From positions 33,866-97,865 of the forward strand of contig RWJK01001322.1 in NCBI GenBank assembly GCA_004335835.1: a stretch of DNA of 64,000 bases, in the 5' to 3' direction. Below are positions 2,291 to 32,925 of this stretch, one piece after another (position 1 is the first letter of the stretch; the number at the start of each line of letters is the position of its first letter). This DNA comes from Scenedesmus sp. ARA3 (Eukaryota; Chlorophyta; Chlorophyceae; Sphaeropleales; Scenedesmaceae). A program made the position numbers and the translations under genes. The notes under the pieces were generated by a model, which had not been told where the DNA came from, ran no database searches, and was given only the letters and a program-made list of their open reading frames with translations.

Positions 2291-4800
2291 TCATGCGCCC
2301 TGCTTCGCTGTTATGACTGCCTTGGCTGCATGCAATGCTGCACCTACATGGGCTCCCTTGCCAGAGCTTCTGCTGCTGCTGCTGCTGTCGCCGCCGCCTG
2401 GCTGCAGCTTTGACTTGAGGCGTCGCCAGCTGTTGTGCAGCCCATGCAGCAGCAAACGCTGCTGCTGCTGCTCCTGCTGCTCCCCTTCCAGCAGTACCCC
2501 ACTTGCTGTACTGCCGTTCGGTGCTGCAGCAGCTATGTCTGTCGCTGGACTGCACACGTGGCGCTCCTGCAGCTGCTGCTGCTGCTGCTGCTGCTGTTGT
2601 ACACTGTCCGCGCCTGCATCTGCACCTGTTGCTGCCGCTGCTGCTGCTGCTGCTGCTGCTGCTGCATCCGTATCCTCTGCATCAGCTGCCGCTGCTTCTT
2701 CGCTGCTGGACTCTGCAGCGATTGCAGGCAGCTGGTGGTGCTGGTCACCATTGGCCTCATCAGCATCAGCATCATCAGCTGCAAAGCTTTGCAGATGCTC
2801 CCTTGCCTCCGCTGCTGGGAACAGCCACTCGCTGAACTTGCGTCCTGAGCCAGCCAAGCCGCCAGTCATCACCTCCTGCATTTGAAAATGGAAAAAGCAT
2901 TAGATTCATATGGATGCGCAATGCACAGGGTGCAGGGGCTCAGGGCTGGGCGCAGGCTGTGGTCATGGGTTCCTGTTGGTGCGGGTGGGGCAAAGTACCT
3001 TAAACTGTGCGCAACCTTGCCTGCATGTGTCATCAGTGCTGCAGGCTGTGTGTCAAAGTGCAGGCAACACACAATTTGCGGCCTGAGCCAGCTAAGCCGC
3101 CAGACATCACGTCCTGCAACCGACAAGATGTGCATTGTGTAGGGCTCAGTGTTTCAGGTTGTTACGCATGTTCCGCTGCAATTGTGTGCAGGTTGTGTGA
3201 CCTGAGTCATGGGTGGTGCAAAGCTCCAACCTGATCATCAGGTCATCAGACTGAACAAGTCAATATTGACAACGTTGTCAAGTCACTCTTTGCCTCGCAC
3301 ACCTTGAGCCCCTGCGTCACGCGTGCCCTGTGTGAGGGCGCAGGCGGCGGCACTCCGCTCAGGAAATGCTTCTGCAGGAAGGCACTGTCCTTGGCTTGCT
3401 TGAAGAAGCGGTGACCAAGCAGCTCTGAGGCGCAGGGCCGGCTTCGAGGGTCTTTTGTGAGGCAGGCGGCGACGATGTCCTTAAAGGCCTGTGTGGCATT
3501 CACACGCATCGACAGCGCATCAGTGTTTGTATGGATCTGTGCACATTCACTTGGCTCCGTGTGTGCTTGCAGCCACTGTGGAGGTTGGTGGATTTGGGCA
3601 GGGCGACGCAAGCGAGTCTGCAAGTCCCTGCACATGACAAAAGTGTCAGTAACCAAGCTTGAAGAAGCGGTGGCCCAGCAGCTCAGAGGCGCAGGGCCGG
3701 GCGCGGGGGTCTTTGGTGAGGCATGCGTCGCCGACGTCCTTGAAGGCCTGAAAAAAAGGTGACAGTGGCGCAGCGTGCGGCAGCAGAGTAGCTGCGCGAT
3801 TATTTTGTGGTGCGGTTGAACGTGAGCATCTAGGTGGCTGCAACATCCACAGGTTCAAGCTGAAACCGCTGTGGAGATTGCATGCAAAGCCTTGAGGACA
3901 ACAACTACAACACATTGGTGCTACAAAGCACACCCATGAGCAAGCGTCAGCGCACTGCTGCGGCCATGTCCTTTGCCTGCCCTTTGTTGGAAAGAGAGCG
4001 TAGACACTTTCAAGGTTCAAGCATCAGCGCACCTTTGAAAAGGTTCGGCCGTCTGGACTGTCCTGCAGCACTGGCGGCGGCTTGTTTGCTGTCTCCAGGA
4101 TCACGCGCATCGGCGGCAGCTTGGCCAGGGGCGGCTTGCCCAGCGCAAGCTCCATCAGGGTGATGCCAAAGGACCAGATGTCCGCAGACGCATCGTACCT
4201 GCAATACAGTTGGGATAAAAGTGATCAGAATACGTGATTGACCATCGCCAGCTCCATCAGGGTGATGCCAAAGGACCAGATGTCCGCAGACACATCGTAC
4301 CTGCAGCAGCATTTAATCAAATTTTGTGATTGGCTAGGGTGATTGGCTAGGGTTGGCTAGGGTTGTTCATTGTGGCTTGCGCAGGGCCAGCTCCATCAGG
4401 GTGATGCCAAAGGACCAGATGTCCGCAGACGCATCATAACTGCAGCACAAATTGAACCAAAGTTTGAAGGTTTCCGTAATTTGTGATGGTTTGAATTGAC
4501 AGTGTTTGGAGTGACAGTGTTTGGAGTGATGTGGCTAGGGTTGTTGACTTTCGCTTGCCCATGGCCAGCTCCAACAGGGTGACGCCGAAAGACCAGATGC
4601 CCGCAGTTGCATCGTACATGAGATACAATCCAACACACACGCATTGCTCCTGAATGCAAGGTGACGCTCCAACGCTCACCCTTCATCGTCCTCTGGCGCC
4701 AGTATTTCAGGCGCCATCCAGCAAGGCGTGCCCACAAACGTCTTGGCCCGCAGCTCCCCTGACAGACCCAACCCAGCCAGCACCACCTCAGGGCAGCCGC

Positions 4801-4853
<53 letters not shown>

Positions 4854-5338
4854 TGCTGGTCCATCAGGCTGGCGAGGCAGGTTGCTGCCACGCCAAAGTC
4901 CCCCAGGCACACCTGGCCCGCCTCAGAGATGAGTATGTTGTCAGCCTGCAAGCAATTTCATAATGATATTGCGGGTAACACAAGGATATACCTGGTTACT
5001 TCCCGCAATTTGTTTTCGGCGGGTCAAGCAACTCAGCCACCTATTCGCAGCACATGCTGTGCTGCCGGGCCAAGTCGTTGACATCCGCAGCCATTGCTGC
5101 TGCTGAGCTGCACTCAGATTTGAAGCATCTGGTTCTCCTTGCTGGTGTGTTCCAGCTGCAACGCGTCTACGAATGTAACATGGTAACATTGTAATGTAAC
5201 ACTTTGCTGTTGCAGCGCAGCATCCACGGAGGCAGCAGCTCACCTTGATGTCCCTGTGTATGCCGCCGTTCTTGTGCACGTACTGCAGCCCCAGCAGCAC
5301 GTAGCGCATGATGCTGGCAACAACCACCTCCTCCAGGC

Positions 5339-5371
<33 letters not shown>

Positions 5372-6841
5372 GGCGGCAGCAGCAGCAGCACCAGCAGCAG
5401 CAGCAAGTTAGCAGCAGCCCCAGCAGCACGTAGCGCATGATACTGGCGACCACCACCTCTTCCAGGCCCTGGCAGCAGCAGCAGCAGCAGCAGCAGTCAC
5501 CACCTGCAGATACATGTACTATGCAAAGTTTGCTGAGTGATGCATGGCCTAGCCTGTTTGCAGCACCGAGGTTGCTGCAAACCTCTTTGGTGTGCAGCTA
5601 ATCACAGCTGTTGCCGCAGCTACCGTCACAGCAACTGTTGCAGCTGTCGACTCAGCTATTGCCGCGGCTGCTGCCTCAGCTGCTGTCTCAGCTAATGTCA
5701 CAGCACCTGTCACAGCATAATGTAGGCAGGCTTAACTTAGAAACAATGTTGAACTCGACTAAACTCGCAGCATTGGTATCAACATGGAATCAGCATGCTG
5801 GCCCACCTGCGGGAACTGGCGCAGCATGATGCTGCGTATGCTGCCCTGGCCCATGAAGGGAGTGACCATCCACAGCTGCCGCCCTGCCACAAAGCTGGCC
5901 AGCAGCGGCAGCACGCAGGGGTGGTCAAAGCGCCGCATCAGCGTCGCCTCGCGCACCAGACCAGCCTGCAGCAGCAGCACAGTCAACAGCAGGCAACTGG
6001 TTGCAATTAGTCAATCAAGGGTTGGCAAGCAACAGCACGCAGGGGTGGTCGAAGCGCCGCATCAGCGTGGCCTCGCGCACCAGGCCAGCGTACGGCATCA
6101 GCAGGTCAGCGCTGTGGCCTGGGGAGTCCAGCTCCAGCACCCGCACCGCCACCACTGCCTCCAGCGGCTTGCAGTGCACCTTGTACACCTGCAGTGGTGT
6201 TGCATTGCATTGCATGGCATTGAATTGCATGGCATGGCATGTATTGCATTGCAGTGGGCTTTTGGTGTCATGTTATAACATGCGGAGTTGCGCGACTGTT
6301 CAAGTGCCAAGCCTATGACGTGTGCTGGCTGCGTTCCCTGGTGACAGGACATCATTACGGCCAATGATGTTGATGTGTGCCGCTGTGACTGGAATGTTGT
6401 CACTTTCTGTTCAGGATCATGCTTTGAATATCCTTCTGGGCAGCTGTTGGTGTTTCTGCCGCCTCGCCCTGCCAGCTTGACGCTGCTGATGTCGTGCATC
6501 TGGCAGTGACACCAGCTGCTATGCATGCTAGCTGCTGCTGCTGCTGCCGGCTCCGCTCACCACTGCAAAAGCCCCGGTGCCAACTTGCTCTTGCAGTTCA
6601 TAGCTGTCAGCCTCGGCGGGCCAAGACCTGCAGTGCCCAGCAGCATGCTGTTTTAGCTGTGGCTTGTGAACAGCACTAGTGTGCTAAATGGGGAGCTTGG
6701 CTGGGACCCAGCACAGAGTCCTGCAAGCTGCATCGTGTACCTGGGGATGAGGTCGAGGCTTTTGGAAGCTTTTTCTTGTCGTAGCCTGCCTCCAGACTTG
6801 CCGCTTGCGATGAAGCTTTTCCATAACCGGGATGCGTCCAT
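2291..6841 (-). CDS. Ste20-family protein kinase, SPAK/OSR1/FRAY-like, with polyQ in the activation segment
   Basis: Nine exons in consistent frame: 6841..6828, 6627..6561, 6188..6081, 5965..5807, 5339..5244, 4945..4680, 4198..4033, 3488..3303, 2875..2291 (548 aa). The first two exons are the least certain. In order: glycine loop VGTGAFAVVYK, catalytic loop HRDIKADNIL, DFG, TFVGTPCWMAPE, then ADIWSFGITLMEL and a subdomain XI with DPRSRPCASELLGHRFF. These match the germinal-centre kinase VI group (SPAK/OSR1), which phosphorylates membrane transporters and cytoskeletal regulators in other organisms. Two oddities: the beta-3 lysine position reads AVRV, so Arg replaces the ATP-anchoring Lys, and 19 consecutive Gln separate DFG from TFVGTPCW. 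The C-terminal 195 codons are acidic with Ala and Gln runs and show no clear OSR1 C-terminal docking domain. Copies of four exon junctions sit in its introns. Confidence 0.82.
3082..3117 (-). repeat. Decoy copy of kinase last-exon acceptor
   Basis: On the minus strand this is a diverged copy of the first about 36 bases of the last kinase exon (true start 2875), including the CAG before it. It lies upstream of the true exon in the direction of transcription. A weaker trace continues near 3200. Confidence 0.7.
3655..3747 (-). repeat. Decoy copy of kinase subdomain XI exon
   Basis: A pyrimidine-rich acceptor (revcomp of cctgaaaaaaagg) is followed on the minus strand by a close copy of the exon that truly begins at 3488: it encodes AFKDVGDACLTKDPRARPCA, then the HRFFK end. 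It stops after that point and lacks the remainder of the true exon. It lies 259 bases upstream of the true acceptor. No good donor follows, so I read it as a duplicated fragment and not an alternative exon. Confidence 0.8.
4199..4620 (-). repeat. Three decoy copies of the kinase WSFG exon junction
   Basis: Copies of the CAG acceptor plus about 50 bases encoding YDASADIWSFG begin on the minus strand at 4300, 4439 and about 4617. The complete exon begins at 4198. The spacings are 102, 139 and 178 bases. The first two copies keep a CAG acceptor; the outermost has lost it and is the most diverged. Only the innermost copy continues into the rest of the exon. Confidence 0.85.
4802..4858 (-). repeat. 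CAG tract coding for 19 glutamines inside a kinase exon
   Basis: On the plus strand there are 16 CTG units, then TTG and two further CTG. On the coding strand this is 19 Gln codons, 18 CAG and one CAA. The tract lies in the exon 4945..4680, between DFGVAATCLASLMD and CGCPEVV, inside the kinase activation segment. Confidence 0.95.
5408..5469 (-). repeat. Decoy copy of kinase catalytic-loop exon
   Basis: The minus strand carries the acceptor and the first half of the exon that truly starts at 5339 (GLEEVVVASIMRYVLLGL). It then breaks off into CTG-rich sequence before the HRD motif. It lies about 130 bases upstream of the true exon, and both copies are preceded by CAG-rich tracts. Confidence 0.85.
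5966..6080 (-). repeat. Kinase intron made of a copy of its flanking exon
   Basis: The 115-base interval between exons 6188..6081 and 5965..5807 begins on the minus strand with a close copy of the start of the downstream exon (GLVREATLMRRFDHPC encoded twice). The frame is restored if splicing uses the GTGCGC inside the first copy and the CAG before the second, which leaves an AGLAGL doublet in the protein. This looks like an intron born from an exonic tandem duplication. Confidence 0.7.
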
Positions 6842-8140: not shown

Positions 8141-11100
8141 ATGTCTCGTGGTCGGATTGTCAGCTCCCTGCTCAGGGCTGCAGCGAAGGCAGCCCGCACT
8201 TCAGAGCAGAGCGGCCAATATGTGGCTCGGCGAATGTTTAGCACCAATGGGGTTGGTCTGGCCGCAGCTGGCGCAGGTGTGTGATTGATCTACCGGCATA
8301 CCCCTCTGCTCATCGCCAGGTGGAGCGCGCCAGTCACATACGTGTGCTCGCCTGGTTTTCGCAGGCCGCTCGTTGCTTGGAGTGTCAGCATGGCGGATGC
8401 CGATCCCGCTGGCAGCGCAGGGGGTGCGCCACATCTCCCTGGACGCCCTGAAGCCATCAGACAAGTAGGTTCGGCAGCAACAGAAACATGCTGGGCAGCC
8501 ATGTGCAGCTGATCAAGCAATTGAAGCTTGAGTAGCTGCATACGTATGCTTTGCACATGGTTGGAATCCCTGCTGGAAGCTGTACCACTGCCAGCAGGCA
8601 TGTAGTAGTGTGCACAACAGCAGCACAGCAGTGCATGGCTGTGACAAGCACAGAGTCAAATTACCTTCAGCCATTGTGGACGTGCAAGGGGCTTTGGGCA
8701 CTGCTACGTATTGACATCATCACAACCACGAGGATTCATGAACGCATATGCTTGTGGTTGATGCACGCCATGTTGTGTGAAGTGCCTGTGGGTGCCTCTA
8801 CCCTCCTACGATGCAGCAGCTGCTGCATCCACCATGCAGCCTTGTATTTCCACACAAAGCTATGTCCTGCAAACACTGCATACATATGCACCACTCTTTG
8901 TCCCTGTTTCCATCCTTTATTTTAGTGGTAACAACACATCATCTGTTCAGCACACACGTGTGCTTGCCGCACACATTTGACATGCCCACGACTCCCACGC
9001 CCTTCCATTGCGCTGCTGCACGTCCATAAAGCAACCTTGTCAAGTCATGCTTCATACTGAAAGCTGGCTGCATCCCAGCACAACCGCAAGCTGACATTCA
9101 GTGTCTGCTCCAAGTATACTTGCTCATTGCTGCTGCTGTCGCCGCTGCTGCTGTGTGTGCAGCTTTGTGCCGCGCCACAACAGCACCACTCCCGAGGAGG
9201 AGGCAGCCATGGTCCAGGTGCGAGGCTAAAGCTGTAGCAGTAGTTACAGCAAGCAAGTTTGATCTGTTGATGAAGCAGTGAATGCCAGTCGGCAATTACC
9301 CCTCACACAGAGGAGGAGGCAGCAATGGTCCAGGTGCGAGGCGAGACAGCGCAGCGCGTACAGTCTGCGCAGCTGCTGCAGCTGCAGAGGCAGAGGGTCG
9401 CATGGTGTCTCTGTACCGCAGATTGGTCCTGCACTGTGCTGTGTGGCGCAGCTGAGCAGTGGCTGCGCTGTCCCTCTGTGCACGTGTACTGTGTGGCAGG
9501 CTTTGTACTGGCTGACAACAGCGCCTATGTCATCGCCCCGTTGTGTGTGGGTGCTCAAGCAAGTCATGTAAGCTACCACGCACAGCTCCTGCAACTTGCA
9601 TACTATGAAATTGTGACTGAGAGCTGACCTCTGTGGGCTGTGTGAATTGTTTTATGTCGTTGTTCTTGTCTGTCTTTCGCAAGCCACCGGCTTCGCCAGC
9701 ATGCATGCGCTGATTGACGCCACCATGCCCACCCCTTTGTGTTTTCTTCGTGGCTGACATGCTGACATTTGTGGGCCGCGCTGTTTGGCTGCCGCAGGCC
9801 ACCGGCTTTGCCAGCATGGATGCGCTGATTGATGCTACTGTGCCAAAGTCCATCAGGCGTGGTGACGCCATGGACATGGGCATCTACAGCGAGGGCATGA
9901 CGGAGTCGGAGTTCCTGGGCTTCTTCAAGTGAGAACCTTGGCGTGAAGTTGGGTGGGAACTTTGGCGGGAACTTGGCTGGGGAATGTGCCGGGCAAGCAG
10001 TGCAGCGCTGGCAGTGGGCGGCAGCGCAGCAGAGGCAATGGTTGCATGCAACAAGCATGTAAAGCAGCAACACCTCCTCTGGAAGCAAGCGATGTACTGC
10101 AGTTGTGTGGCTGCCCGACTGAAGCTGTTTAGATTGCTTTGGCTGCAATGGCAGGACTACCAGCGCCTCGCATATGCTAGCAGAAACACGCATGCTTGCC
10201 CAAGACTGAACCTTGGCAGTGCCTGCACCACCTACTTGCGCCGGCTTGCAGGAACATGCCATTGATGAATTGTGCTCAAGAGCTACATCGGCATGGGCTT
10301 CTGCTGCTTGTTTGACAAGCCTTTGACCTCTTCTTGCAGGAACATGGCTGAGAAGAGAACGCTGTGCTCAAGAGTTGCATCCGCATGGGCTGCTACAACT
10401 TGGGTGACACGCGCGTTCAATGTGCATTGCTGTGCTCTGCTTGCAGGAACATGGCTGAGAGGAACACGGTGCTCAAGAGCTACATTGGAGTGGGCTACTA
10501 CTGCTTATGCAACAAAGCTTTAATGTCTTCGGCGTATCTAGCATGGTTGTAATGTCTCTGCTTGCAGAGACATGGCTGAAAAGAACACGGTGCTCAAGAG
10601 CTACATCGGCATGGGCTACTACTGCTTATGCAACAAGGCCTTGATGTCTTCGGCTTATCTAACACGGATGTAATGTCTCTGCTTGCAGGAACATGGCTGA
10701 GAAGAACACGGTGCTCAAGAGCTACATCGGCATGGGCTACTACTGCTTATGCAACAAGGCCTTGATGTCTTCGGCTTATCTAACACGGATGTAATGTCTC
10801 TGCTTGCAGGAACATGGCTGAGAAGAACATGGTGCTCAAGAGCTACATCGGCATGGGCTACTACTGCTTATGCAACAAGGCCTTGATGTCTTCGGCTTAT
10901 CTAGCACGGATGTAATGTCTCTGCTTGCAGGAACATGGCTGAGAAGAACACCGTGCTCAAGAGCTACATCGGCATGGGCTACTATGACACACACGTGCCG
11001 CCCGTCATCCTGCGCAACGTGCTGGAGAACCCGGGATGGTACACGCAGTACACGCCATACCAGGCGGAGATCGCGCAGGGCAGGTGCGGCGCTAAGAAAC

Positions 11101-14100
11101 AATCTGCTTGTGCAGCAATGTTTGGGTGCTGGGTGTGTACCGGGTACATGCAGTGCACGCCATACCGGGTAGAGATGGCACAGGCTTCAATAACAGCTGG
11201 TGCCGCGCTTCGTGCGGCGCTGCTGGCCACACACTGTGCAGCAGCAATTACTGGAAGCAGCATGCATACAGCGAGAAACGGGCAGGGCAACAAACTGCGT
11301 ATTTCCAGTAACAGCAATGGCTTGTTCTGCACAGCAACACTGTTGCTGTAAAAGCTTGCGCTCGCTTCTCACCAACTAATAAATAACATCTTTTGGTTGC
11401 TGCAACCGTGTTAACAATTGCAGGCTGGAGAGCCTGCTGAACTTCCAGACCATGATCTGCGACCTCACGGGCATGCAGATCAGCAACGCCTCGCTGCTGG
11501 ACGAGGCCACTGCCGCTGCTGAGGCCATGACCATGTGCAGCGCCGTGGCACGCGGCAAGAAGCCGCGCTTCCTGGTGTCCGTGAGTTGCAGCCAATGATT
11601 TTGAAATGAGAAGCGCTTTGTTTTGTTGTGAACAGCTCCCTGCAGGCTAGTAGGAGTTTGGTTTGTCGTGCGGCAGTATGCTTGCGTGCGGCAGCCACAT
11701 GCAGCAGCAGCACAGCAGAAGCCGGGCTTCCTGGTGTCCGTGAGTTGCAGCTTTGTTGAAAGTCCCTTGGGCTTCATTATCTTTCAGCAGCAGAAAAGCA
11801 GCACAGAACAGCCAGGGCCGAACCAGAGGAGTTGTGCTGGTCGTGTAATGCTGCTTTTGGCAGCACCGGGCTGTGCGCCAGGATGCAGCGGATAGCAGCA
11901 GCTGAGCAGGTGACAGCAGCTGCAGCATTTGTAGCGAGCTGTGTGGCATTCCTTGCTTCGTTGATGGCGCTGGATCGCAGCTCCTGCCGGATCCTGCAAG
12001 CACCACAAAACTGGCGCACCGTCTCTGCGGCCCTGCTGTTTCACACCCTGCCACCATGGCTGCCTGCCGCACTTCTTGCTGCTGCTGCTGCTGCTTGCAG
12101 TCCAAGTGCCACCCGCAGACCATTGCTGTGTGCCAGACGCGCGCAGAGGGCCTGGGCTTGGTGGCTGAGGTGGTGGATGAGGGCAGCATGGCATTTGGCA
12201 AGGACGTGTGCGGCGTGCTGGTGCAGTACCCCGACACCACCGGCTCGGTCAACGACTACAAGGTGCGTTAGTTTGACCGCGTTCGACCGGGTCGGCCGTC
12301 GCCGGGAATTGGTGCTTGGGAGCCTCAGAAACCTGCTGTCAGCTTCTGTGAACGTTGGCAGCGCTTGAATTCTGAAGTCGCCATGCAGCAACCCTGTGCC
12401 CACCTGCTGCCATCGGCTGCGCTGCACTGCACACTCTTCGGATTTGCAGTCCATGGTGGATGCTGCGCACAAGGCGGGCGTTAAGGTGTGCGTGGCCACT
12501 GACCTGCTGGCGCTCACCAAGCTGGCCCCGCCAGGCGAGTGGGGCGCAGACATCGTGCTGGGCAGTGCGCAGCGCTTCGGCGTGCCCATGGGCTATGGCG
12601 GCCCCCACGCAGCCTTCCTGTCCTGCCACGACGAGTTCAAGAGGTGCGCTAGTTTATTTACATTATGTAGCGTGTGCAGGCGGCTGGTTGTGTGTTAGTT
12701 TTGGCGTGCCTATGGCGTGGCTGTGTGGGCCCCACGCAGCTTTCCTGTCCTGCCACGACGAGTTCAAGAGGTGTGTCGATTGCACCTACGTAGGGACGGG
12801 CAACTGCGTATGTTGCCGGAAGTCACATAAGCGTGCATCCCTGTCTGCAACTTTGGCGTGTCCATCAATGCTTCGTGGCAGGCATGGCAGCAGGTGTGTG
12901 CGTGCATTCATGTTGCTGCTGAACTGCACTATTTCTTCTTGTTCCGCGGGCTGATGCCCGGTTGCATCATTGGCGTGTCCATCGACGCCACACAGCACAT
13001 CTGCATGTGTACACGCATATTCATCACACCTGTATGATTTCCCACGCTTTGCCACGCATGCTGATGCCCGGCCGCATCATCGGCGTGTCCATCGACGCCA
13101 CACAACACACCTGCATGTGTACACGCATGCTTATCACACTGTTCTTGCTGCATACTTTCGCATGCAGGCTATGCCCGGCCGCATCATCGACGTGTCCTTG
13201 AACACCACACAACACACCTGCATGTGTCCACGCATGCTCATCACACTGTTCTTGCTGCATACTTTTGCATGCAGGCTGATGCCCGGGCGCATCATCGACA
13301 TGTCCATCGACCGGTCACAACGCCTGCATGTGTACACGCATATTCATCACACCTGTTTGTATCTCCCACGCTTTTGCATGCAGGCTGATGCCTGGCCGCA
13401 TCATCGGCGTGTCCATCGACGCCACACAACGCACCTGCATGTGTACACGCATATTCATCACACCTGTTTGATCTCCCACGCTTTTGCATGCAGGCTGATG
13501 CCTGGCCGCATCATCGGCGTGTCCATCGACGCCACACAACGCACCTGCATGTGTACACGCATACGTATCACACCTGCTTATTTTTCCCACTCTTTGCCAC
13601 GCAGGCTGATGCCCGGTCGCATCATCGGCGTGTCCATTGACGCCACGGGCGCGCCCGCGCTGCGCATGGCCATGCAGACGCGCGAGCAGCACATCAGGCG
13701 CGACAAGGCCACCTCCAACATCTGCACGGCGCAGGCGCTGCTGGCAAACATGGCGGCGCTGTACGCAGTGTACCACGGGCCAAAGGGCCTGACTGAGATC
13801 GCTGACCGCGTGCACGGCCTGACTGCTGTGCTGGCGGCTGGAGCCAAGAAGCTGGGCCTGGCACCCACTGCCAACAACTTCTTCGACACGCTCACCATCA
13901 AGGTGCGCTAACCCAATAAACTAGGGAGTGTACAGCTGTTAGCTGTGGCTGAATGTCATGTGGGCCAGCAAGCAACTTCTTCGGCACACTGACCATTTGT
14001 GCTGCATGCTCTTGCATGTAACAGGCAAGTGCAGCCGCGGTTGGCCATGCTCCTTTTCTGCAAGCAGGTATGGTGTGGGCCATACTGCTGTGCTGCAGTA

Positions 14101-17100
14101 CGTGCCTTGTGCTGCACGCCTTGTTGCTTACCCCTGATGCTGCCGCTCACGCCCCTGAGCTGAGAGCGGTGCGTGTACGTGTTGGTGTGCTGTCCGCAGG
14201 TGCCATCTGCTGATGCGGTGCTGTCTGCTGGTGTGGCTGCCGGCGTGAACCTGCGCAAGGTGGATGCCACCCACGTGGGTGTGAGCCTGGACGAGACCAC
14301 GCGCCTGGCTGACGTGGACGTGCTGCTCAAGGTGAAAATTGGATCAGAACTGTTTGTCATTTTCCATCGTAAGCTACAGCATATTGACCTAATTGAAGGG
14401 AATGTATGTCCTAACGCGCCCAGCTGACGTGGACGTGCTGCTAAGGTGAGGATGGAGGATGGTTCAGAACTTTCTTTCTTCCTAGTCTACAGCATATCGA
14501 CTCTCTTCACTATCTTAGATAAGTTATGTCCTATGTGCAACATGGCCGCCAGGGCCCCTTTCTTATACATGCACGCACACATGCATGCGCCTGTTCTGTA
14601 TCAACTGCATTTGCATTCCCATGCTTGCGCAGGTGCTCAACGGCGGCAAGGCAGCCGGCTTCACCGCCGCCTCTCTGGCGCCGTCTGTGCAGCCCGCGCT
14701 GGGCTCCTTCCAGCGCAGCAGCCCCTTCCTGCAGCAGCAGATCTTCAACAGCTACCACTGGTGAGCTTGTCATAACGTGTGATCATAACATTGACACCAG
14801 CAGCCCCTTCCTGCAGCAGCAGATCTTCAACAGCTACCACTGGTGAGCTTGTCATAACGTGTTGCTATAACATGCACACCAGCAGCCCCTTCCTGTGGAT
14901 GATCTGCAACAGCTACTACGGGTGATCTGGCTAAGCCAATATACTCTGATCTTTTTAGACACACAGCAGCTGGTACTGCTGTAATTCAGCCGGCGCTTTG
15001 CGCTGCTCTCTTTGTGTACTTGTGCACTGCTGCAGTACCAGCTGCACGGTTCCTGCATGTTGACATCAAGAGATCACACATCAACTTTGTGCTGCTGCTG
15101 CTGCTGCTTCTGCTGCCGCAGTGAGCACGAGATGCTGCGCTACCTGAAGCGCCTGGAGAACCGCGACCTGAGCCTGGCGCACTCCATGACTCGCTGCATG
15201 CGCTGATCTGGCTCATCATGTCTTGTTCTTACTCTGCTGCCGCAGCGAGCACGAGATGCTGCTCTACCTGAAGCGCTTGGAGAACTGCGACCTGAGCCTG
15301 TCGCACTCCATGACTGGCTGCATGCGCTGATCTGGCTCATCATGTCTTGTTCTTACTCTGCTGCCGCAGCGAGCACGAGATGCTGCTCTACCTGAAGCGC
15401 TTGGAGAACTGCGACCTGAGCCTGTCGCACTCATGATTTGTTGCACGCGCTGATCTGGTGTTATCATGTCTTGTTCTTACTCTGCTGCCGCAGCGAGCAC
15501 GAGATGCTGCGCTACCTGAAGCGTCTGGAGAACCGCGACCTGAGCCTGGCGCACTCCATGATCCCGCTGGGCTCCTGCACCATGAAGCTCAACGCCACCA
15601 GCGAGATGATCCCCATCACATGGCCAGAGCTGGCAAACCTGCACCCCTACTGCCCGCCAAACCAGGTATGAGGCTGTTAACCTCAAGTTATTGTCAGGTG
15701 CGGTGTGTGTATGTGTTGTTGCAACTGGTTCGTCATATTGACCTGGCCAGAGCTGGCAAACCTGCACCCCTACTGCCCGCCAGACCATGTGCGCTTGTTG
15801 TGCTTGGTTGCGTGTTTGAGCAGCATGTCAAGGCGACATGTTTAAGCATTGTGTGGACGCCATTACACAGTTGCACACCGCAGCTGCTTGCTTGCACCAG
15901 CACACACTCGATTGCAACCTCCGCGGCCTCCAGTGCCTGCCTGCTGTTTTGCAAATCTCCGCTACATCCCATGAGCGCAACAGGCCAAGTGTTACATGGT
16001 GATGTTCCATGACCTGGCTTGACAATCGCAAACCTGCTGATTCGCGCTCACCATTGTGCGTGGTCTGCGCTGCTGTCGCTGTGCTGCAACAGGCTCACAG
16101 CTACGCGGAGATGTTCCGCGACCTGGCTGCATTGCGCTTGCCAATCTGCTGAAATGCTCACCATAACGTGTATGTTCGGCCCTTCTCTTTATGCACCGCA
16201 GGCCCAGGGCTACGCGGAGATGTTCCGCGACCTGGCTGCGCAGCTGTGCAGCATCACCGGCTTTGACGCGGTCAGCCTGCAGCCCAACAGCGGCGCCAGT
16301 GGCGAGTACGCGGGGCTCATGGCCATCCGCGCCTACCACAGGAGCAGGTGCGGTTTGGTGGTTTGTCGTGCCGGTGTATGTGTCTGCTGTGATTATCCGT
16401 CATGAGAGGAACAGGTTCGTGGCATGACAGCATGGAGCGCATGCGCGTGGAACAGTATGGCTGCATGCATGCACTTGTACAGACATTGCGGCTGCCCAAG
16501 CATGCGGCGCCACACCGTGATACATACCTTGCCTATCCGCACGCTGTATAGGCTTGTTGATGTGCTTCTGCTGCTGCTCCTGCTGCTGCTGCAGGGGTGA
16601 CACGCACCGCGACGTGTGCATCATTCCTGTGAGCGCGCACGGCACCAACCCCGCCTCGGCTGTCATGGCTGGCATGAAGATCGTGAGCGTGTCCACGGAC
16701 GCCAAGGGCAACGTGAACATGGCCGAGCTCGAGGAGAAGGTGCGGGGCGTGTTTGGTGTTCCTTTGTTTGTTACAAACAATTCTGCATTGTGTTGTGGCT
16801 GGCCACTGTGTGTGGATGAAGATGCGTGACACAAGATGGGCAGTATGAACATGTCCCAGGTCAAGACTCAATGTGCGAGGCAACTTTCGCCCTGCAAGTC
16901 TGCAGCGTGTTGTGTCTGGCTGCTGTGTGTGAGCGTGTCCACGGACGCCAAGGGCAACGTGAACATGGCGGAGCTCAAGGAGAAGGTGCGGGGCGTGCTG
17001 TTCTATGTGTGGTTTCACGCATGTTGATGCAACGCATCGCACGGTGCGTTTTCTGGGGCTGCAATGGTGTCGGTCCGGCAGCTGCATGTCTACGAAGGCG

Positions 17101-17978
17101 CAACATAAACATGGCAGTGCTCAAGCAGCAGATGTGCATGGTTGGTTTGACGACCTCAATCAAAACAAACACCTCAACACACTGTGTACTTGCCTGCTGC
17201 TCGTATGTCCACCGCAGGCCGAGAAGCACAGCAAGAACCTGGCTGCGCTGATGATCACCTACCCCTCCACGCACGGCGTGTACGAGGAGGGCGTGGACGA
17301 GATCTGCCGCATCATCCACCAGCACGGCGGCCAGGTCTACATGGACGGTGCCAACATGAACGCACAGGTGGGTTGCTGTGCTAAAGAAGTGCAGGGAACG
17401 GCAAACAAAACATTGAAATGTTACGGGCCAGGTGTTCCAACGTGCGTCAGCCGCTGCTTCAGCTGTACTGCTGCAACCTGCTGCAACCTGCTGTCATGTA
17501 TATACTTGCATCGCCTCACAGCGCAGTAACGAATGCACATATGCAGGTGCGCCTTACCAGCTCGGGGCGTTGTCACGGTGCGGTGTGCCGCCTCAACCTG
17601 CGTCACTACTGCTTGCTGTTATCTCCTGTTCTCCTCTCGCTGCCCTCCTCACACCTATGTACATTTCACTGTTATGCACGTGTGCATGTGGGCCTGACCA
17701 GCCCCGGCCACATCGGCGCTGACGTGTGCCAACTGACCCTGTGCGGGGCTGGCAGTTGTCATCTTCATCACATTTGTCATAACGTGGTTACATTGTTATG
17801 TTCGTGCAGGTGGGCCTGACCAGCCCCGGCCACATCGGCGCTGACTTGTGCCACCCGACCCTGTGCGGGGCTGGCGGTTGTCATCTCCACATCACATTTG
17901 TCATAACGTGGTTATATTGTTATGTTCGTGCAGGTGGGCCTCACCAGCCCCGGCCACATCGGCGCTGACGTGTGCCAC

Positions 17979-18022
<44 letters not shown>

Positions 18023-20408
18023 CCCAGGCATGGGACCCATCGGCATCAAGGCGCACCTGGCGCCCTTCATGCCCACACACCCCGTGATCCCCACGGGCGC
18101 GCTACCAGAGCAGTGAGTTGCTTGAGTTGCAATATGGTTTAGATGGTTGCATGCTGTGCTCTGCTGTGTTTGATACATTGGCATCAAGGCGCACCTGGCG
18201 CCATTCATGCCCACACACACCGTGATCCCCACGGGCGCGCTGCCCGAGCAGTGAGTACCGTTTGTGTTACTGGATGCTAGTTCTTGTGGTCTTCTCTGTC
18301 GTGTGTGGGTCTGCATTGGCATCAAGGCGCACCTGGCGCCTTTTATGCCCAATCTCATGCACCCTCCCCACTGCACTGCACGCTCACTCACATCTCGCCT
18401 CTCTTTCTCTATCTGCTGTCCATCCCCGCAGGCCCGCCAGCGCCGCGCCCTTTGGCACCATGGCTGCCGCGCCCTTCGGCTCCAGCCTCATCCTGCCCAT
18501 CAGCTACGCATCATACTCACATAGCTCTCTGCCGCTGCTGTCACTTGTTTACCACCCTCAGGCCCGCCAACGCCGCACCCTTTGGCACCATGGCCGCTGC
18601 GCCGATTGGCTCCAGCCTCATCCTGCCCATCAGCTACGCGTCATACTCACATAGCTCTCTGCTGCTGCTGCTGTCACCTGCTTTCCACCGCAGGCCCGCA
18701 AACGCCGCACCATTCGGCACCATGGCTGCCGCGCCCTTCGGCTCCAGCCTGATCCTGCCCATCAGCTACGCCTACATCAGCATGATGGGCAGCGGCGGCC
18801 TGCGCGAGGCGAGCAAGCTGGCCATCCTTAAGGCCAACTACATGGCCAAGGTGCTGGGGCAGCACTACCCCGTGCTCTACACAGGTGAGCAGCAGCGACG
18901 GACAGTTCTACTCATATTCTGCTTGGTTTCTACACAGTCGCTGAGCAGCCACTCAATCAGCAGGCAGAGGGACAGCTGCTGTACCTGCAGTGCAGAGGCC
19001 ATTCTAAGGGGTCTGGGAGCCGCTGCGCATCGTCAACTGCTTGATCCTGTGCCTCCGCCTCCCTTATCTTCAAGCAATATTGTGATGTTATTTGTGCTAT
19101 GCTGTCTATGTGTCCTGCCTTCTGCAGGCCCCAAGGGCACCTGCGCGCACGAGTTCATCCTGGACGTGCGCCCGCTGGAGGCCTCCGTCTGCTGTTCTGC
19201 AATGATACAACCGTTGTATAACTTGCCTGTGCTGCCTCATGTGCTGTGCTATCTGCAGGCCCCAATGGCACCTGTGCGCACGAGTTCATCCTGGACGTGC
19301 GCCCGCTGGAGGCCTCGGCTGGCGTCAAGGCTGAGGACATTGCGAAGCGCCTCATGGACTACGGCTACCACGCGCCCACCATGAGCTGGCCTGTGCCCGG
19401 CACGCTCATGATCGAGCCCACCGAGAGCGAGAGCAAGGCAGAGCTGGACCGGTGAGGGGTGTTATTCAACATGTCACTTTGGTTGCGCTGAGGGGGGTTG
19501 TGCCCGGCACGCTCATGATCGAGCCCACCGAGTTTTGACATGTTAATTTTTGGTACACTGAGGTTGTTGCCCACCATGAGCTGGCCCGTGCCTGGCAAGC
19601 TTATGATCGAGCCCACCGAGAGCGAGAGCAAGGCCGAGCTGGACCGGTGAGGGGTGTTACGTAAAATGTTATGTTTGTGTTATTTCAGTGTTGCGCTGAG
19701 GGGGGTATGTTGCTGTGCGTGGCATGCTCATGATCGTGCCCACTGGGTGATTGATGATCCCCCATGATTAAGATGCAGCATGATTTCACACCGCGCACAC
19801 AACCTGAAACAGCTGCTGACATCAGGATGTCATGTTTTCCGCTGCTGCTGCTGTTGCTGCTGCTGCTGCCACCATCACCAGCTTCTGCGAGGCCATGATC
19901 AAGATCAGGCAGGAGGTGGCGGACATTGAGGCTGGGCGGCTGCCGCGTGACGACAACCCGCTGGTCAACGCGCCACACCCGGCCGGCGTGGTGCTGGCAG
20001 ACACCTGGAGCAGGCCCTACAGCAGGTGCGTGGCAGGGTGGAGAATGCAGAGCTGTGGGTGGATGTTGTTTGAGGAGCCAGGCAGTGGAGAAGTGCCACA
20101 TTGGTACTTCTTCTGCGTTGTTTTTAGTTCAAGGGTCCAGGAAGTGTGCGCAGCATGATCAAGACGCTGTGTGCAGGGCTTGCACTTTGTGAAGCGCTGG
20201 GGATTCTTGGGCGCAGAAACATCAATCTGCTCATGCTCTTGCTGCTGCTGCTGCTTTCATCGCTTGCAGGGAGGTGGCGGCCTTCCCCGCGCCCTGGGTG
20301 AAGCAGGCCAAGTTCTGGCCCACCACCAGCCGCGTGGACAACGTGTACGGCGACAGGCACCTCATCACGCGCATCACCGACGAACAGCCCGTGGCAGCGC
20401 ACGCCTAA
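8141..20408 (+). CDS. GLDP: Glycine dehydrogenase (decarboxylating), P-protein of the glycine cleavage system
   Basis: Twenty exons restore one frame of 1034 aa: 8141..8276, 8365..8464, 9163..9217, 9798..9928, 10931..11083, 11424..11580, 12101..12262, 12450..12643, 13605..13902, 14200..14331, 14633..14760, 15494..15665, 16202..16347, 16595..16739, 17218..17367, 17934..18112, 18694..18884, 19259..19451, 19882..20025, 20270..20408. The protein removes CO2 from glycine and passes aminomethyl to the H-protein lipoamide, in mitochondria during photorespiration. Residues 1-45 form a basic targeting peptide ending near RRMFS. Landmarks include FIGMGYY-like [15 protein letters not shown], the core [18 protein letters not shown], and [18 protein letters not shown], whose Lys (about residue 773) binds pyridoxal phosphate. 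Length and order match plant P-proteins. Most exons have decoy junction copies in the adjoining introns. The start was chosen as the only ATG giving the targeting peptide. Confidence 0.97.
9311..9333 (+). repeat. Decoy copy of P-protein exon 3 end
   Basis: The last 23 coding bases of exon 3 (EEEAAMVQ) and the GTGCGAGG donor recur about 116 bases downstream of the true donor at 9218. The copy is nearly identical. Confidence 0.85.
9680..9728 (+). repeat. Decoy copy of P-protein exon 4 start
   Basis: This copies the acceptor region and the first about 45 bases of exon 4 ([14 protein letters not shown]) 117 bases upstream of the true exon at 9798. The copy has M-to-H and V-to-M changes and a shifted CAAG in place of CAGG at the junction. 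Confidence 0.85.
10252..10930 (+). repeat. Six decoy copies of P-protein exon 5 start, 121-bp period
   Basis: Copies of CTTGCAG plus the first about 55 bases of exon 5 ([18 protein letters not shown]) start at 10252, 10340, 10447, 10568, 10689 and 10810. The complete exon starts at 10931. The last four steps are exactly 121 bases; the older outer copies are 88 and 107 apart and more diverged. The units at 10689 and 10810 are almost identical. Read from an acceptor in the 10689 unit, the frame reaches TAA just before the next unit, so use of such a decoy would truncate the protein. Confidence 0.97.
11135..11185 (+). repeat. Decoy copy of P-protein exon 5 end
   Basis: A diverged copy of the exon 5 tail ([13 protein letters not shown]) lies about 100 bases downstream of the true donor at 11084. 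It has several substitutions and no preserved donor. Confidence 0.7.
11716..11742 (+). repeat. Decoy copy of P-protein exon 6 end
   Basis: The bases encoding KPGFLVS followed by GTGAGTTGCAG repeat the end of exon 6 and its donor about 155 bases downstream of the true donor at 11581. Confidence 0.8.
12698..12776 (+). repeat. Decoy copy of P-protein exon 8 end
   Basis: This copies the 3' part of exon 8 (FGVPM...[15 protein letters not shown]) with its GTG donor, about 130 bases downstream of the true donor at 12644. Internal bases are deleted and the frame is not preserved throughout. Confidence 0.85.
12950..13604 (+). repeat. Six decoy copies of P-protein exon 9 start, about 110-bp period
   Basis: Copies of the exon 9 start ([14 protein letters not shown]) begin at 12951, 13061, 13169, 13275, 13385 and 13495. 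The complete exon has the same base at 13606. The steps are 110, 108, 106, 110, 110 and 111. Copies from 13169 on keep a GCAG acceptor. The unit next to the true exon is exactly 37 codons long and open, so its acceptor (exon base 13494) would add 37 residues in frame. The other units shift the frame. Confidence 0.96.
14413..14450 (+). repeat. Decoy copy of P-protein exon 10 end
   Basis: The bases encoding ADVDVLLK and the GTGAG donor of exon 10 recur about 115 bases downstream of the true donor at 14332, with one base lost in the last codons. Confidence 0.8.
14796..14930 (+). repeat. Two decoy copies of P-protein exon 11 end
   Basis: The tail of exon 11 ([14 protein letters not shown]) plus its GTGAGCTTGTCATAACGTG donor region is repeated at about 14799, nearly identical, and again at about 14881, more diverged. 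The spacing is about 75-80 bases, downstream of the true donor at 14761. Confidence 0.9.
15122..15493 (+). repeat. Three decoy copies of P-protein exon 12 start, exact 124-bp period
   Basis: Copies begin at 15122, 15246 and 15370, with the complete exon at 15494. All three steps are exactly 124 bases. Each unit has a CTGCCGCAG acceptor, about 70 bases encoding [20 protein letters not shown], then a short stretch ending in TGA within the unit. Use of the first copy's acceptor would end the protein a few codons after LSLAHSM. Confidence 0.97.
15742..15790 (+). repeat. Decoy copy of P-protein exon 12 end
   Basis: This repeats the exon 12 tail ([12 protein letters not shown]) about 120 bases downstream of the true donor at 15666. 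The donor itself is changed to CATGTGC. Confidence 0.85.
15992..16135 (+). repeat. Decoy copies of P-protein exon 13 start
   Basis: A good copy at about 16091 repeats [19 protein letters not shown] sequence with an AACAGG acceptor. A degraded trace (GATGTTCCATGACCTGGC) lies near 16002. Both are upstream of the complete exon at 16202. Confidence 0.85.
16929..17130 (+). repeat. Decoy copies of P-protein exon 14 end
   Basis: The tail of exon 14 ([18 protein letters not shown]) with its GTGCGGGGCGTG donor recurs at 16929..17000 with few changes, and as a diverged trace near 17090..17130. Both are downstream of the true donor at 16740. Confidence 0.88.
17547..17933 (+). repeat. Three decoy copies of P-protein exon 16 start
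   Basis: Copies of the exon 16 start ([14 protein letters not shown]) begin at 17547, 17688 and 17810, with the complete exon at 17934. The steps are 141, 122 and 124. The first copy is the most diverged ([10 protein letters not shown]). The third copy retains TTCGTGCAG as acceptor. None contains the catalytic HKTFC lysine segment. Confidence 0.93.
18177..18360 (+). repeat. Two decoy copies of P-protein exon 16 end
   Basis: The exon tail [12 protein letters not shown]..., in the first copy continuing through the CAGTGAGT donor, recurs at 18177..18256 and, truncated, at 18315..18352. Both are downstream of the true donor at 18113, about 140 bases apart. Confidence 0.92.
18432..18693 (+). repeat. 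Two decoy copies of P-protein exon 17 start
   Basis: Copies begin at 18432 and 18562, with the complete exon at 18694 (steps 130 and 132). Each has a CAG acceptor and about 80 bases encoding the start of the exon through LILPISYA, and then diverges. Confidence 0.95.
19128..19258 (+). repeat. Decoy copy of P-protein exon 18 start
   Basis: One unit of 131 bases repeats TCTGCAGGCCCC and the following [23 protein letters not shown] bases directly upstream of the complete exon at 19259. Confidence 0.95.
19499..19745 (+). repeat. Decoy copies of P-protein exon 18 end
   Basis: The exon tail ([20 protein letters not shown]) with its CCGGTGAGGGGTGTTA donor recurs in full at about 19570..19655. A shorter copy lies at 19499..19535 and a trace at 19715..19745. 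All are downstream of the true donor at 19452. Confidence 0.93.
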
Positions 20409-22105
20409 AACCTGTGGCTAAGCAGCGCAGCTTGCTGGCTGGCGGTGTGCGTGTGCGGCAGCTGGGCTGCATCACGCGCATCACCGAGGAGCAGCCCGTG
20501 GCGGCGCACGCCCAAAACCTGCGGCGTAAAGCCTGCGGCTAAGCAGCGCAGCTTGCTGGCTGGCTGTGTGCGTGTGTACGGCAGCCGCGCTGCGTCATGC
20601 GCATCACCGAGGAGCAGCCCGTGGCAGTGCACACCTGAGCAGCAGCAACAGCAGCAGCACATATGAGGCGTTGGCAGCCACCAGCAGCGCAGGGGTAGTT
20701 GATGTGACGTCAGCTGCGCTGCTTGTGCAGCAGCTGATTGGTTGTCGGCAGCTGCGTGTGTTTGACGCTGCAGCAGCAGCGGCTGCACGCATGAGGCCTG
20801 CTGTTGGAGCCCTGCAGGCGCTAATGGCTTCAGCAGGCGGATTAGTAGCGGTGCTGCATGTGCTGCAGGGCTGTAGCAGATGCTGCTGCAGGAGGCAGCT
20901 GCGGCCCACTTGAAGCCGGCCGCTGCAGCACCATATGTAGGTCAACGGCAGCAGCAGCAGTGCACGCAGCAGCTGCTGGCATCGCAGTTGGGTGCCGCAT
21001 TGCAGCGCATTGGCGTGGTGGAGGTGTGTAGTCAGTTGGTGCAGCACCTGCAGCTGACTGCTAGCAGCAGCAGGGCTGCAGCAGCAGCAGCAGCTGTTGC
21101 TCCCACAGGATCTGATGTTTCTGGAATAACCTGATGCTGTGGCAGCGCCTGTTTGCCGCACCTCTGGGCTGCTGATGCAGTAGCGTTGCACATGGCTGCA
21201 ACTTGCTAGACAGCAACGGGCCAGAAGGATAGCAGCAGCAAGTTCTGATGGGAAAGCGACTGCTGCTTGGGAGTTTGAACATGTCTGCACGCTTGTGCAG
21301 CGGCTTGATCGGGCTGGGATGCTGTGTATGTTTGGGTCAGCCACAGCATGTAGCAGGCTAACAGCTTGTTGCTATGCCAACGTTGATTTGTACACGCTTG
21401 TTTACCATACAACGGCTTTGTAGTGGGCCCTGTCGTGCGAACAAGGTACAGGAGCCGCATCGATTGCAATTGTTTGCCACAGACCATGCAATCCAAGACT
21501 GTGCACGTCTGCATGCACAGGTTGACACTGACACTGTGTTACGGCACTGGGAAAGAGTGCCTCTTCAACCTTGTAATGCTTGTTCTGTATCACCTGGTAC
21601 TTATGAGCCTTGTCTTGGGTGGTGATGCTGGCCAGTGGCCACTGCAGTGCAAACCTGCCAGCTCAGCAGTGCTGTGTCGGAGCATTGTCACCATTCTACT
21701 GCTATTCATGTGAATGCTGTAACTGCCGCGTCGAGCTTTGGTTCTTTTGAGCTACTTGCACACTATCAACGTTGCCACGGCCATCGTTAAAAATGAGATC
21801 AGTCAAGACCTGGAAGGTCTCAAGCCACTATTGCCGTTGCCAGGAAAGCCATACAGGAACACAGAGCATCGATTACAATCTTTCGATCTGGTTGAATCAG
21901 ATAGTGGCGTTCGATTGTGGATCGTGGGGTTGCTGAAACTTACTGAAGACAAAGAACCCTACCTTACTTGAACGCCAATACATCACCGACCATACAACTG
22001 TGCCATTTACACGCTAAGCTGTGATAAAACTACGAGTCAGGGTGGACGTGCCCGCCTGCCGCACCACCGTCGTGCGGCAGCAGTCAAAACTCTGGTAGCC
22101 CTGCG
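20409..22105. other. P-protein 3' region and intergenic sequence
   Basis: After the two C-terminal copies, 20640..21140 is rich in Ala and Gln codons, with plus-strand ORFs containing alanine runs. I could not link them to a start, splice sites or a family. A TGTAA motif, the usual green-algal polyadenylation signal, occurs at 21718..21722. The region 21150..22105 is less GC-rich and shows no gene I recognise. Confidence 0.5.
20463..20640 (+). repeat. Two copies of the P-protein C-terminal coding end in the 3' UTR
   Basis: Sequence encoding [14 protein letters not shown] at the end of the true exon (stop at 20406..20408) recurs at about 20468 and 20594, followed by related AAGCAGCGCAGCTTGCTGGCTGG spacer sequence in part. 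The unit length is about 115-125 bases. These copies lie after the stop codon, so they are not confined to introns. Confidence 0.9.
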
Positions 22106-28177: not shown

Positions 28178-28480
28178 ATGCTTACTGTAGCTGTGTCTGA
28201 TGCCGATGAACCGGCTACGCTCGCACTCCTCTCTTCAATAGCTGATCAGTCTGACGACTCGACAACACATGTGCTGTCAGCACTGCAACAAAGGCATCTG
28301 CACTGCAACAAAGGCATCTGCACTGCAACAAAGGCATCTGCACTGCAACAAAGGCATCTGCACTGCAACAAAGGCATCTGCACTGCAACAAAGGCATCTG
28401 CACTGCAACAAAGGCATCTGCACTGCAACAAAGGCATCTGCACTGCAACAAAGGCATCTGCACATCTTAGTGAGCTGTAG
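28178..28480 (+). CDS. Possible first exon of an unknown gene containing a minisatellite
   Basis: An ATG at 28178 opens a frame reading MLTVAVSDADEPATLALLSS and on to THVLSALQ, composition typical of real coding here, before entering the 20-bp repeat. It runs divergently from the FANCE-like gene with a 275-base gap. The repeat adds three 20-residue peptide copies and the frame closes at 28480. I found no convincing downstream exon, so this is either a short gene or a first exon whose intron contains the repeat. Confidence 0.25.
   Translation: MLTVAVSDADEPATLALLSSIADQSDDSTTHVLSALQQRHLHCNKGICTATKASALQQRHLHCNKGICTATKASALQQRHLHCNKGICTATKASAHLSEL
28281..28460 (+). repeat. Perfect 20-bp minisatellite, nine units
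   Basis: Nine uninterrupted identical copies of CACTGCAACAAAGGCATCTG. Three units make 60 bases, so every frame that is open over three units stays open, and several frames on both strands are stop-free. Perfect identity points to very recent expansion. Confidence 0.98.

Positions 28481-32874: not shown

Positions 32875-32925
<51 letters not shown>

Follow-up and report, generated by a model that had tools for sequence, protein, structure and literature searches.

Partial copies of exon-intron junctions in introns of the P-protein gene and other genes of Scenedesmus sp. ARA3

The introns of the P-protein (glycine dehydrogenase) gene of the freshwater green alga Scenedesmus sp. ARA3, contained in a stretch of 64,000 nucleotides (contig RWJK01001322.1, forward strand, positions 33,866 to 97,865; hereafter “the window”), hold partial copies of the adjoining exon ends that recall several described systems. 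Vertebrate decoy exons, which promote intron retention, likewise provide intronic sites resembling real splice sites, but here there is no sign of selection on the splice sites of the copies. Concerted arrays of the minisatellite type share with this locus a tandem period, the growth and loss of units and, possibly, homogenisation; in the P gene, however, the array has an exon edge under constraint at one of its ends, and similarity is maintained in just one half of every unit. Tandem exon duplication, as in mutually exclusive exons, likewise copies exon sequence locally along with a splice site, but it involves whole exons, whereas the P-gene copies are one-ended exon fragments: they end inside the exon on one side, and no complete exon with both splice sites was found duplicated in this gene.

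Two further systems bear comparison. In intron gain by tandem genomic duplication (the AGGT model), an exonic AGGT segment is duplicated to give a new intron (PMC3443670). That process and the one seen here are alike in being short tandem duplications within a gene whose coding sequence is spared by splicing; here, by contrast, an existing junction is spanned, and no intron is added but the old one is lengthened. No AGGT-bounded new intron was found, the copies lying inside introns, most of them with a whole junction, while the true exons keep an open coding sequence (CDS). Introners (PMC9860276) resemble one apparently non-autonomous element beside exon 3 of the P gene in being short, dispersed, close to splice sites and associated with direct repeats; the target-site duplications of some earlier introner families measure 3-9 bp, whereas the exon 3 element has repeats of 16-35 bp and lies in an existing intron. 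The mean intron of Tetradesmus obliquus (T. obliquus), 462 bp, is the longest among five green algae, the other four ranging from 230 to 302 bp (PMC5966456), and an assembly paper on another strain mentions no such copies (PMC5552973). No report of junction-spanning copies at this density was found in a literature search that left most subscription journals outside its scope. The junction copies are real and dense and occur in numerous genes of the genome; within the literature searched, they are undescribed.

Junction copies in the P-protein gene

The CDS of the P gene (3105 bp) is open and specifies a full-length product, and its 19 introns are all GT-AG. Its best protein match, T. obliquus P0001 (hypothetical protein OEZ86_008483), shows 3 differences in 1003 shared residues, including a P/L in exon 3 and an E/K in exon 14; the window comes from T. 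obliquus (Chlorophyceae, Sphaeropleales) or a species very near to it. The model of OEZ86_008483, which seemingly comes from another assembly, joins the same exons and includes no copy, this being a gene model and not RNA.

Each exon end was compared with its own intron, with a score of at least 18 taken as a copy; the P gene was scanned with curated exons rather than those of the gene finder described below. The scan yielded 42 partial copies at 20 exon ends, namely 19 of the 38 splice junctions and the stop codon of exon 20. A preliminary description of this DNA had listed 15 exons with decoy copies (3, 4, 5, 6, 8-14, 16, 17, 18 and 20), which is exactly the list that the scan returned, and the density and layout within the gene are also as it had described them. 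Its statement that every copy spans a junction was too broad, as three copies stop 26-37 bp short (18306-18351, 19489-19532 and 19713-19743) and the two at exon 20 cross the stop codon, not a splice site. When the window was compared with itself, 37 of the 58 near repeats started between 8 and 22 kb. The copies differ from their exons by 0-30%, with indels and separate spacers, and are arranged head to tail, with periods of 82-138 reported by Tandem Repeats Finder (TRF) in the junction arrays. Over half of the intron DNA of the gene (4733 of 9163 bases, 52%) falls between a true junction and the copy farthest from it. The gene and its copies are as follows.

8141..20408, + strand: gene for the P-protein (glycine dehydrogenase), 1034 aa encoded in 20 exons; the reference against which all copies are placed
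9310..9342, + strand: copy of the exon 3 end (24 bp) with donor (9 bp), spacing 116; alternatively the target-site duplication of an element
9683..9729, + strand: copy of the exon 4 start with acceptor, spacing 115
10252..10863, + strand: six acceptor-bearing copies of the exon 5 start, inner period about 121
11143..11184, + strand: copy of the exon 5 end, similarity ending 4 bp short of the donor
11717..11751, + strand: copy of the exon 6 end (23 bp) with donor (12 bp), spacing 159
12700..12773, + strand: copy of the exon 8 end with donor, spacing about 124-127
12950..13535, + strand: six acceptor-bearing copies of the exon 9 start, period about 110; AG gone in the copy at 13060
13968..13996, + strand: weak copy of the exon 9 end, score 19
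14414..14501, + strand: copy of the exon 10 end with donor and some intron, spacing 115
14798..14919, + strand: two copies of the exon 11 end with donor, period 82; 45 bp identical in the nearer copy
15123..15437, + strand: three copies of the exon 12 start with acceptor, period 124
15741..15787, + strand: copy of the exon 12 end with donor, exon part 98% identical, intron flank non-homologous
15984..16130, + strand: two acceptor-bearing copies of the exon 13 start, period 109, the nearer one identical to the exon over a 31-bp stretch
16908..17131, + strand: copies of the exon 14 end with donor, spacing 246 and 392; by eye, a decayed one between the exon and the first copy
17547..17863, + strand: three acceptor-bearing copies of the exon 16 start, at spacings of 124, 246 and 387
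18176..18351, + strand: copy of the exon 16 end with donor, followed by another that ends 37 bp short of the donor
18432..18644, + strand: two copies of the exon 17 start with acceptor, period about 131
19128..19191, + strand: copy of the exon 18 start with acceptor, spacing 131
19489..19743, + strand: three copies of the exon 18 end, the donor reached by the middle one only
20450..20636, + strand: two copies of the exon 20 end across the stop codon, spacing 107 and 230

The copies are local. Twelve P-gene spacers, searched against 87 Mb with very common words skipped, gave 23 matches, all within the P gene, so that locality is shown at the sensitivity of this search. With the whole gene as a DNA query, only repeat-like matches were found elsewhere among the best 39 of 205 candidates, and another haplotype or a paralogue was rejected on the same result. 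In the exon 14 region (16739), where the gene reads E and the protein of the other assembly K, the copy at 16908-16985 reads K by eye; the state preserved in the intronic copy seems to predate that of the exon.

Copies in other genes and the question of junction preference

The sample comprised 20 loci chosen by a fixed rule, a 50-kb stretch and the window, giving 255 kb of readable sequence; one locus (L022, 8,876 of 10,000 bases N), introns containing N, and exons scoring under 8 were left out. Exons outside the P gene are predictions of a small home-made gene finder that was trained on the P gene and, as used, recovered 15 of its 20 exons exactly (17 of 20 in an alternative setting), and gene ends in the sample, also predicted, are uncertain. 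Pfam domains were found in four of the predicted proteins: alpha-amylase with CBM48, P-type ATPase, ABC1 and protein kinase. Most later counts use “clean” copies, for which alignments with more than one gap were excluded, leaving 74 or fewer of 86.

With the P gene included, a copy scoring at least 18 was present at 86 of 393 junctions, compared with 1 of 393 when introns were reversed and 8 of 393 when introns were taken from elsewhere; chance is excluded as the source. A second scan found copies at 49 of 183 donors and 44 of 197 acceptors, or, with at most one gap, at 38 and 36 (74 of 380 junctions), against 2 of 72 and 4 of 84 in its wrong-side control. Comparison of this and other genes with themselves, as proposed in the preliminary description, bore out the copies, which recur at 57 of 342 junctions, counted clean, in 35 genes outside the P gene. 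The same description had presented them as a property of one housekeeping gene: the P gene is indeed enriched (17 of 38 junctions clean, compared with 57 of 342 elsewhere, p = 1.5e-4), but the copies are not confined to it, as 18 of the 35 other genes have at least one. Genes are heterogeneous (chi-square p = 0.0005 over 15 genes with at least 8 junctions). The P-type cation ATPase gene of the window, only about 26 kb from the P gene (46018-54660, - strand, 21 predicted exons), is poor in copies, with one at 1 of 35 scanned junctions; a protein-kinase gene (2291-6215) has more.

2835..6089, - strand: junction copies of the protein-kinase gene, clean at 4 of 10 predicted junctions

An artefact of assembly or sequencing is extremely improbable, given the divergence, indels and separate spacers of the P-gene copies and the presence of junction-type events in 13 of the 21 sources sampled.

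By distance from the true junction, 60 of 120 clean copies lie at 82-165 bp, 11 at 166-231 bp, 25 at 232-276 bp, none at 277-321 bp, and 24 farther, so that spacing clusters near 120 and 240 bp. Within an analyst-chosen range of 60-165 bp, near neighbours average 121 bp for 29 donors and 124 bp for 31 acceptors. This distribution corrects the cluster of unit lengths at about 105-155 bp given previously. Exon parts are mostly 23-90 bp long (two measure 108 and 133 bp), and in the arrays inspected the outermost copy consists of an exon part with merely some 3-22 intron bases. The consistent layout, with acceptor copies upstream and donor copies downstream, is confirmed and follows from geometry: any viable tandem duplication that spans a junction must leave an intact unit on the exon: after an acceptor duplication the last copy alone stays attached to the exon, and after a donor duplication the first.

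Whether duplication also prefers junctions was a proposal of the preliminary description, together with a count of junction-spanning units against others. That count gave 109 local repeat events, of which 82 contain a predicted exon edge, 7 lie within exons and 20 touch no exon. As a null, random 122-bp units were placed in predicted genes, keeping only placements that leave the exon intact; the expected junction share is 0.445 at present intron lengths and rises to 0.515 and 0.635 when introns are capped at 400 and 250 bp, respectively. The intron flank is still homologous in 19 of 58 events tested (5 of 26 acceptors and 14 of 32 donors), and against these 19 stand 5 clear, 8 possible or at most 11 non-junction repeats. 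These three counts rest on sorting by eye 21 repeat events without a clear exon: nine proved to be of junction type and one exonic (L015 3049), five were clearly non-junction (C953 32958, 33197 and 14841; L018 9332; L029 4459), three were doubtful (window 43009, L024 545 and L032 2594), and three were excluded (minisatellites at window 7202 and in L026, and an unclear case at L029 3076). Depending on the assumptions, the excess of junctions over geometry has p = 0.0006 to 0.59, and the proposal is neither upheld nor refuted. In its favour are the 82 of 109 events and the apparently junction-spanning direct repeats found at 8 of 13 places of the exon 3 element treated below. Weighing against it are the forced layout, the purging of exon duplications that break the frame, the longer recognisability of the exon half of a junction copy, which follows because one partner is under selection, and the array at exon 20; because this array spans a stop codon, no splice site is required for arrays to form. 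Predicted gene ends carry clean copies at 1 of 22 stops and 2 of 11 starts (4 and 4 when gapped, mostly low-complexity ones are included); set against 74 of 380 junctions to weigh a splice-only origin, these numbers are too few to decide. Preference for junctions beyond survivorship is a hint, unproven.

Pure survivorship, in which tandem duplications arise at random and at equal rates and their similarity is preserved by the exons with no homogenisation, is unlikely. The junction share comes near geometry if ancestral introns were short (19 of 27 against 0.635, p = 0.30; 19 of 30, p = 0.59), and non-junction and in-frame exonic duplications do occur; with present intron lengths, however, the junction excess has p = 0.0006-0.03, and the intron flanks of otherwise similar pairs, considered in the next section, already disfavour this explanation under the rates assumed there. 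Duplications in predicted or likely coding sequence were seen at L015 3049-3200, L024 4568-4724 and L016 3678-3778, with spacings of 108, 72 and 60 bp; all three spacings are divisible by three, which fits a survival of in-frame exonic duplications alone.

Origin and persistence of the copies

When a duplicated unit of exon and intron decays, the intron parts should diverge about twice as fast as the pairs of exon parts. Neutral duplication and decay were simulated from the real P-gene junctions with assumed substitution and indel rates. At 95-100% exon identity the observed median flank score was 12.5, compared with 39 in the simulation (5-95%: 23-45), and at 90-95% it was 10.5, compared with 28.5; 30 of 74 pairs fell under the simulation's 5% bound. 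Simple neutral duplication followed by decay is thus disfavoured, at the assumed rates. A pair's exon-part identity does not correlate with that of its intron parts (rho 0.07, n = 67). In 13 of 36 two-copy events the intron flanks exceed the 95% level of unrelated flanks, and because these flanks stay alike, part of the events began as true tandem duplications, with exon parts that appear younger than the intron parts. At exon 13, 31 of 31 bases of the copy match the exon beside adjoining diverged sequence. The P-gene rate of difference at codon positions 1 and 2 is 0.083, and the extra at position 3 is 0.073; both are alike and small, and exon and copy therefore appear to have been reset together, which repeated exchange between exon and copy would explain better than selection on the copy.

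We consider a recurrent tandem duplication of about 120 bp, with exon parts homogenised by unequal exchange or conversion and the constrained exon acting as the master copy, to have a probability of about 0.5. In a first step, part of an exon and the adjoining part of an intron, together about 120 bp, would be duplicated in tandem across the exon edge, and the duplication would survive only where one intact exon and splice site remains. The copies, removed at splicing along with the rest of the intron, would then accumulate neutral changes. Later, the exon parts would undergo slippage, unequal exchange or gene conversion, which would add units and move older ones outward, so that exon parts are reset while intron parts lose their homology, giving arrays of exon, spacer, exon, spacer and exon. 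The exon-attached unit, frozen by selection on the protein, would re-seed its neighbours, and copies would stay recognisable for long. We infer both the exchange step and the disuse of the copies in splicing. Persistence of the copies is most likely exon-anchored concerted evolution.

Several observations sit poorly with duplication followed by homogenisation. In 23 of 36 two-copy events there is no intron homology above the 95% level, and insertion or the copying of exon ends fits these equally well; likewise, the homogenisation test finds exon parts too alike for their flanks, and copying of exon ends alone would look similar. Outward ageing is no more than a tendency: among 11 P-gene arrays of at least two copies, as we read them, the farthest copy is more diverged than the nearest in 8, less so in 2 and tied in 1 (p = 0.11). 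Nor does this reading account for the narrow unit length. Across the whole sample the third-position excess is 2.5-fold (188 differences, compared with 79 and 74), and 151 of 341 differences are nonsynonymous, which points to stronger constraint than a neutral copy ought to be under; in the sample, certain predicted exons may be real duplicated exons. Finally, the copy at exon 3 is better accounted for by an inserted element. The local reverse transcription listed earlier as a possible mechanism finds no support, many copies carrying intron sequence beside the exon part.

9225..9309, + strand: dispersed element of about 85 bp between the exon 3 donor and its copy, with sequence matches in the genome

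Unlike the 12 P-gene spacers, which reveal no dispersed family of similar introns, the exon 3 element belongs to a dispersed family with at least 20 places on 19 contigs, in both orientations (it lies in the window and near position 1500 of L001-L012). Terminal inverted repeats were not seen by eye, and in place of the 3-9 bp target duplications of some earlier introner families, direct repeats of 16-35 bp, abutting its ends or at most 7 bp from them, flank it in 8 of the 13 places, out of 20, that were readable with gene context; the other five show no convincing direct repeat. A splice junction falls within the direct repeat by the exon model in four cases (the window, L004, L007 and L008, with insertion points at donor +8, +19, +8 and +6), and four more repeats span a junction by consensus, judged by eye, at two donors (L001 +8 and L002 +6) and two acceptors. 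If insertion were uniform in a 462-bp intron, 8 of 13 would have p = 3e-5 and 4 of 13 p = 0.06. Among 58 spacers compared within the sample, that of exon 3 alone forms a convincing dispersed family; the genome-wide spacer search covered the 12 P-gene spacers. Mobile elements were rejected as the general nature of the spacers on these two results.

The exon 3 element suggests a tentative alternative, in which short DNA is inserted into a staggered break or a pair of nicks just inside the intron, producing long target-site duplications that span the junction, and the array grows later. The family with its apparently junction-spanning repeats, the clustering of insertion points relative to the donor (+6 to +8 in most cases, +19 once) and the improbability of the 8 of 13 under uniform insertion favour such an insertion, which also predicts copies devoid of intron homology. 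Against it count the match of the 12 other P-gene spacers to the P gene alone, the single convincing family among 58 spacers, the intron homology kept in 13 of 36 two-copy events, and the five family copies whose flanks lack a convincing repeat. Two processes may be at work, or one that sometimes captures a mobile element. More generally, and more doubtfully, a DNA process aimed at junctions might open the gene just within the intron, mostly at donor positions +6 to +8, or else between a few and about twenty bases ahead of the acceptor, and duplicate 16-85 bp across the junction, the gap being filled by short DNA that is sometimes a small mobile element.

Splice sites of the copies and significance

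In the P gene the copies have changed as a neutral copy would next to an exon that drifts at silent sites. Over 44 copies scoring at least 15, differences at codon positions 1, 2 and 3 number 65 of 768, 63 of 769 and 121 of 774, and 139 of the 249 are nonsynonymous. Protein-coding alternative exons were considered and rejected for the P gene, as the copies end within the exon and change at all codon positions; in the sample, 18 of 74 copies are frameshifted.

That the copies are functional decoys, binding splicing factors or yielding unproductive isoforms and kept by selection, is quite improbable. GT or AG is intact in most copies, 62 of 86, yet 69.4 would be expected from the identity of the exon parts, so that retention shows no excess that would indicate selection on the splice sites in these 86 copies. 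Acceptors of copies without close flank homology have real-looking pyrimidine tracts, with a content of 0.645 (n = 28) compared with 0.642 at true acceptors (n = 187) and 0.498 at random intronic AG (n = 3294); moderately decayed duplicates would be expected to look the same. The third-position excess of the whole sample also speaks for decoys, whereas the neutral pattern in the P gene and the common frameshifts speak against them, as does the lack of a copy at about half of the P-gene junctions (19 of 38 or, in the other scan, 21 of 38 are without one) and at 34 of 35 junctions of the large neighbouring ATPase gene.

Two other repeats of the window stand apart from these arrays. Two pairs at 31907-33519, of 138 and 162 bp and with 93-96% identity, are shifted by 1019 and 1036 bp, which suggests a larger duplication of about 1 kb, and a 20-bp minisatellite at 28280-28463 has 9.2 copies with 100% matches.

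The copies mislead gene finders, which call in-frame copies as exons. The home-made gene finder took the in-frame arrays at L018 2926-3889 and L028 6564-7556, which comprise repeats of 26 codons in an ABC1 kinase-like gene, for repeated exons; these could be real extra exons. Where up to six near-identical acceptors stand upstream of the right one, the arrays are natural test sets for site choice by the spliceosome. Given the long mean intron of T. obliquus and the share of P-gene intron DNA that lies between junctions and their outermost copies, the copies may be a main source of intron growth. A junction-aimed process, if true, would lengthen introns harmlessly, since an intact exon with its splice site remains after every event, and would have touched about a fifth of the sampled junctions. 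A junction-directed origin is possible; if junction targeting were confirmed, it would tie genome change to splicing or transcription in a new way.

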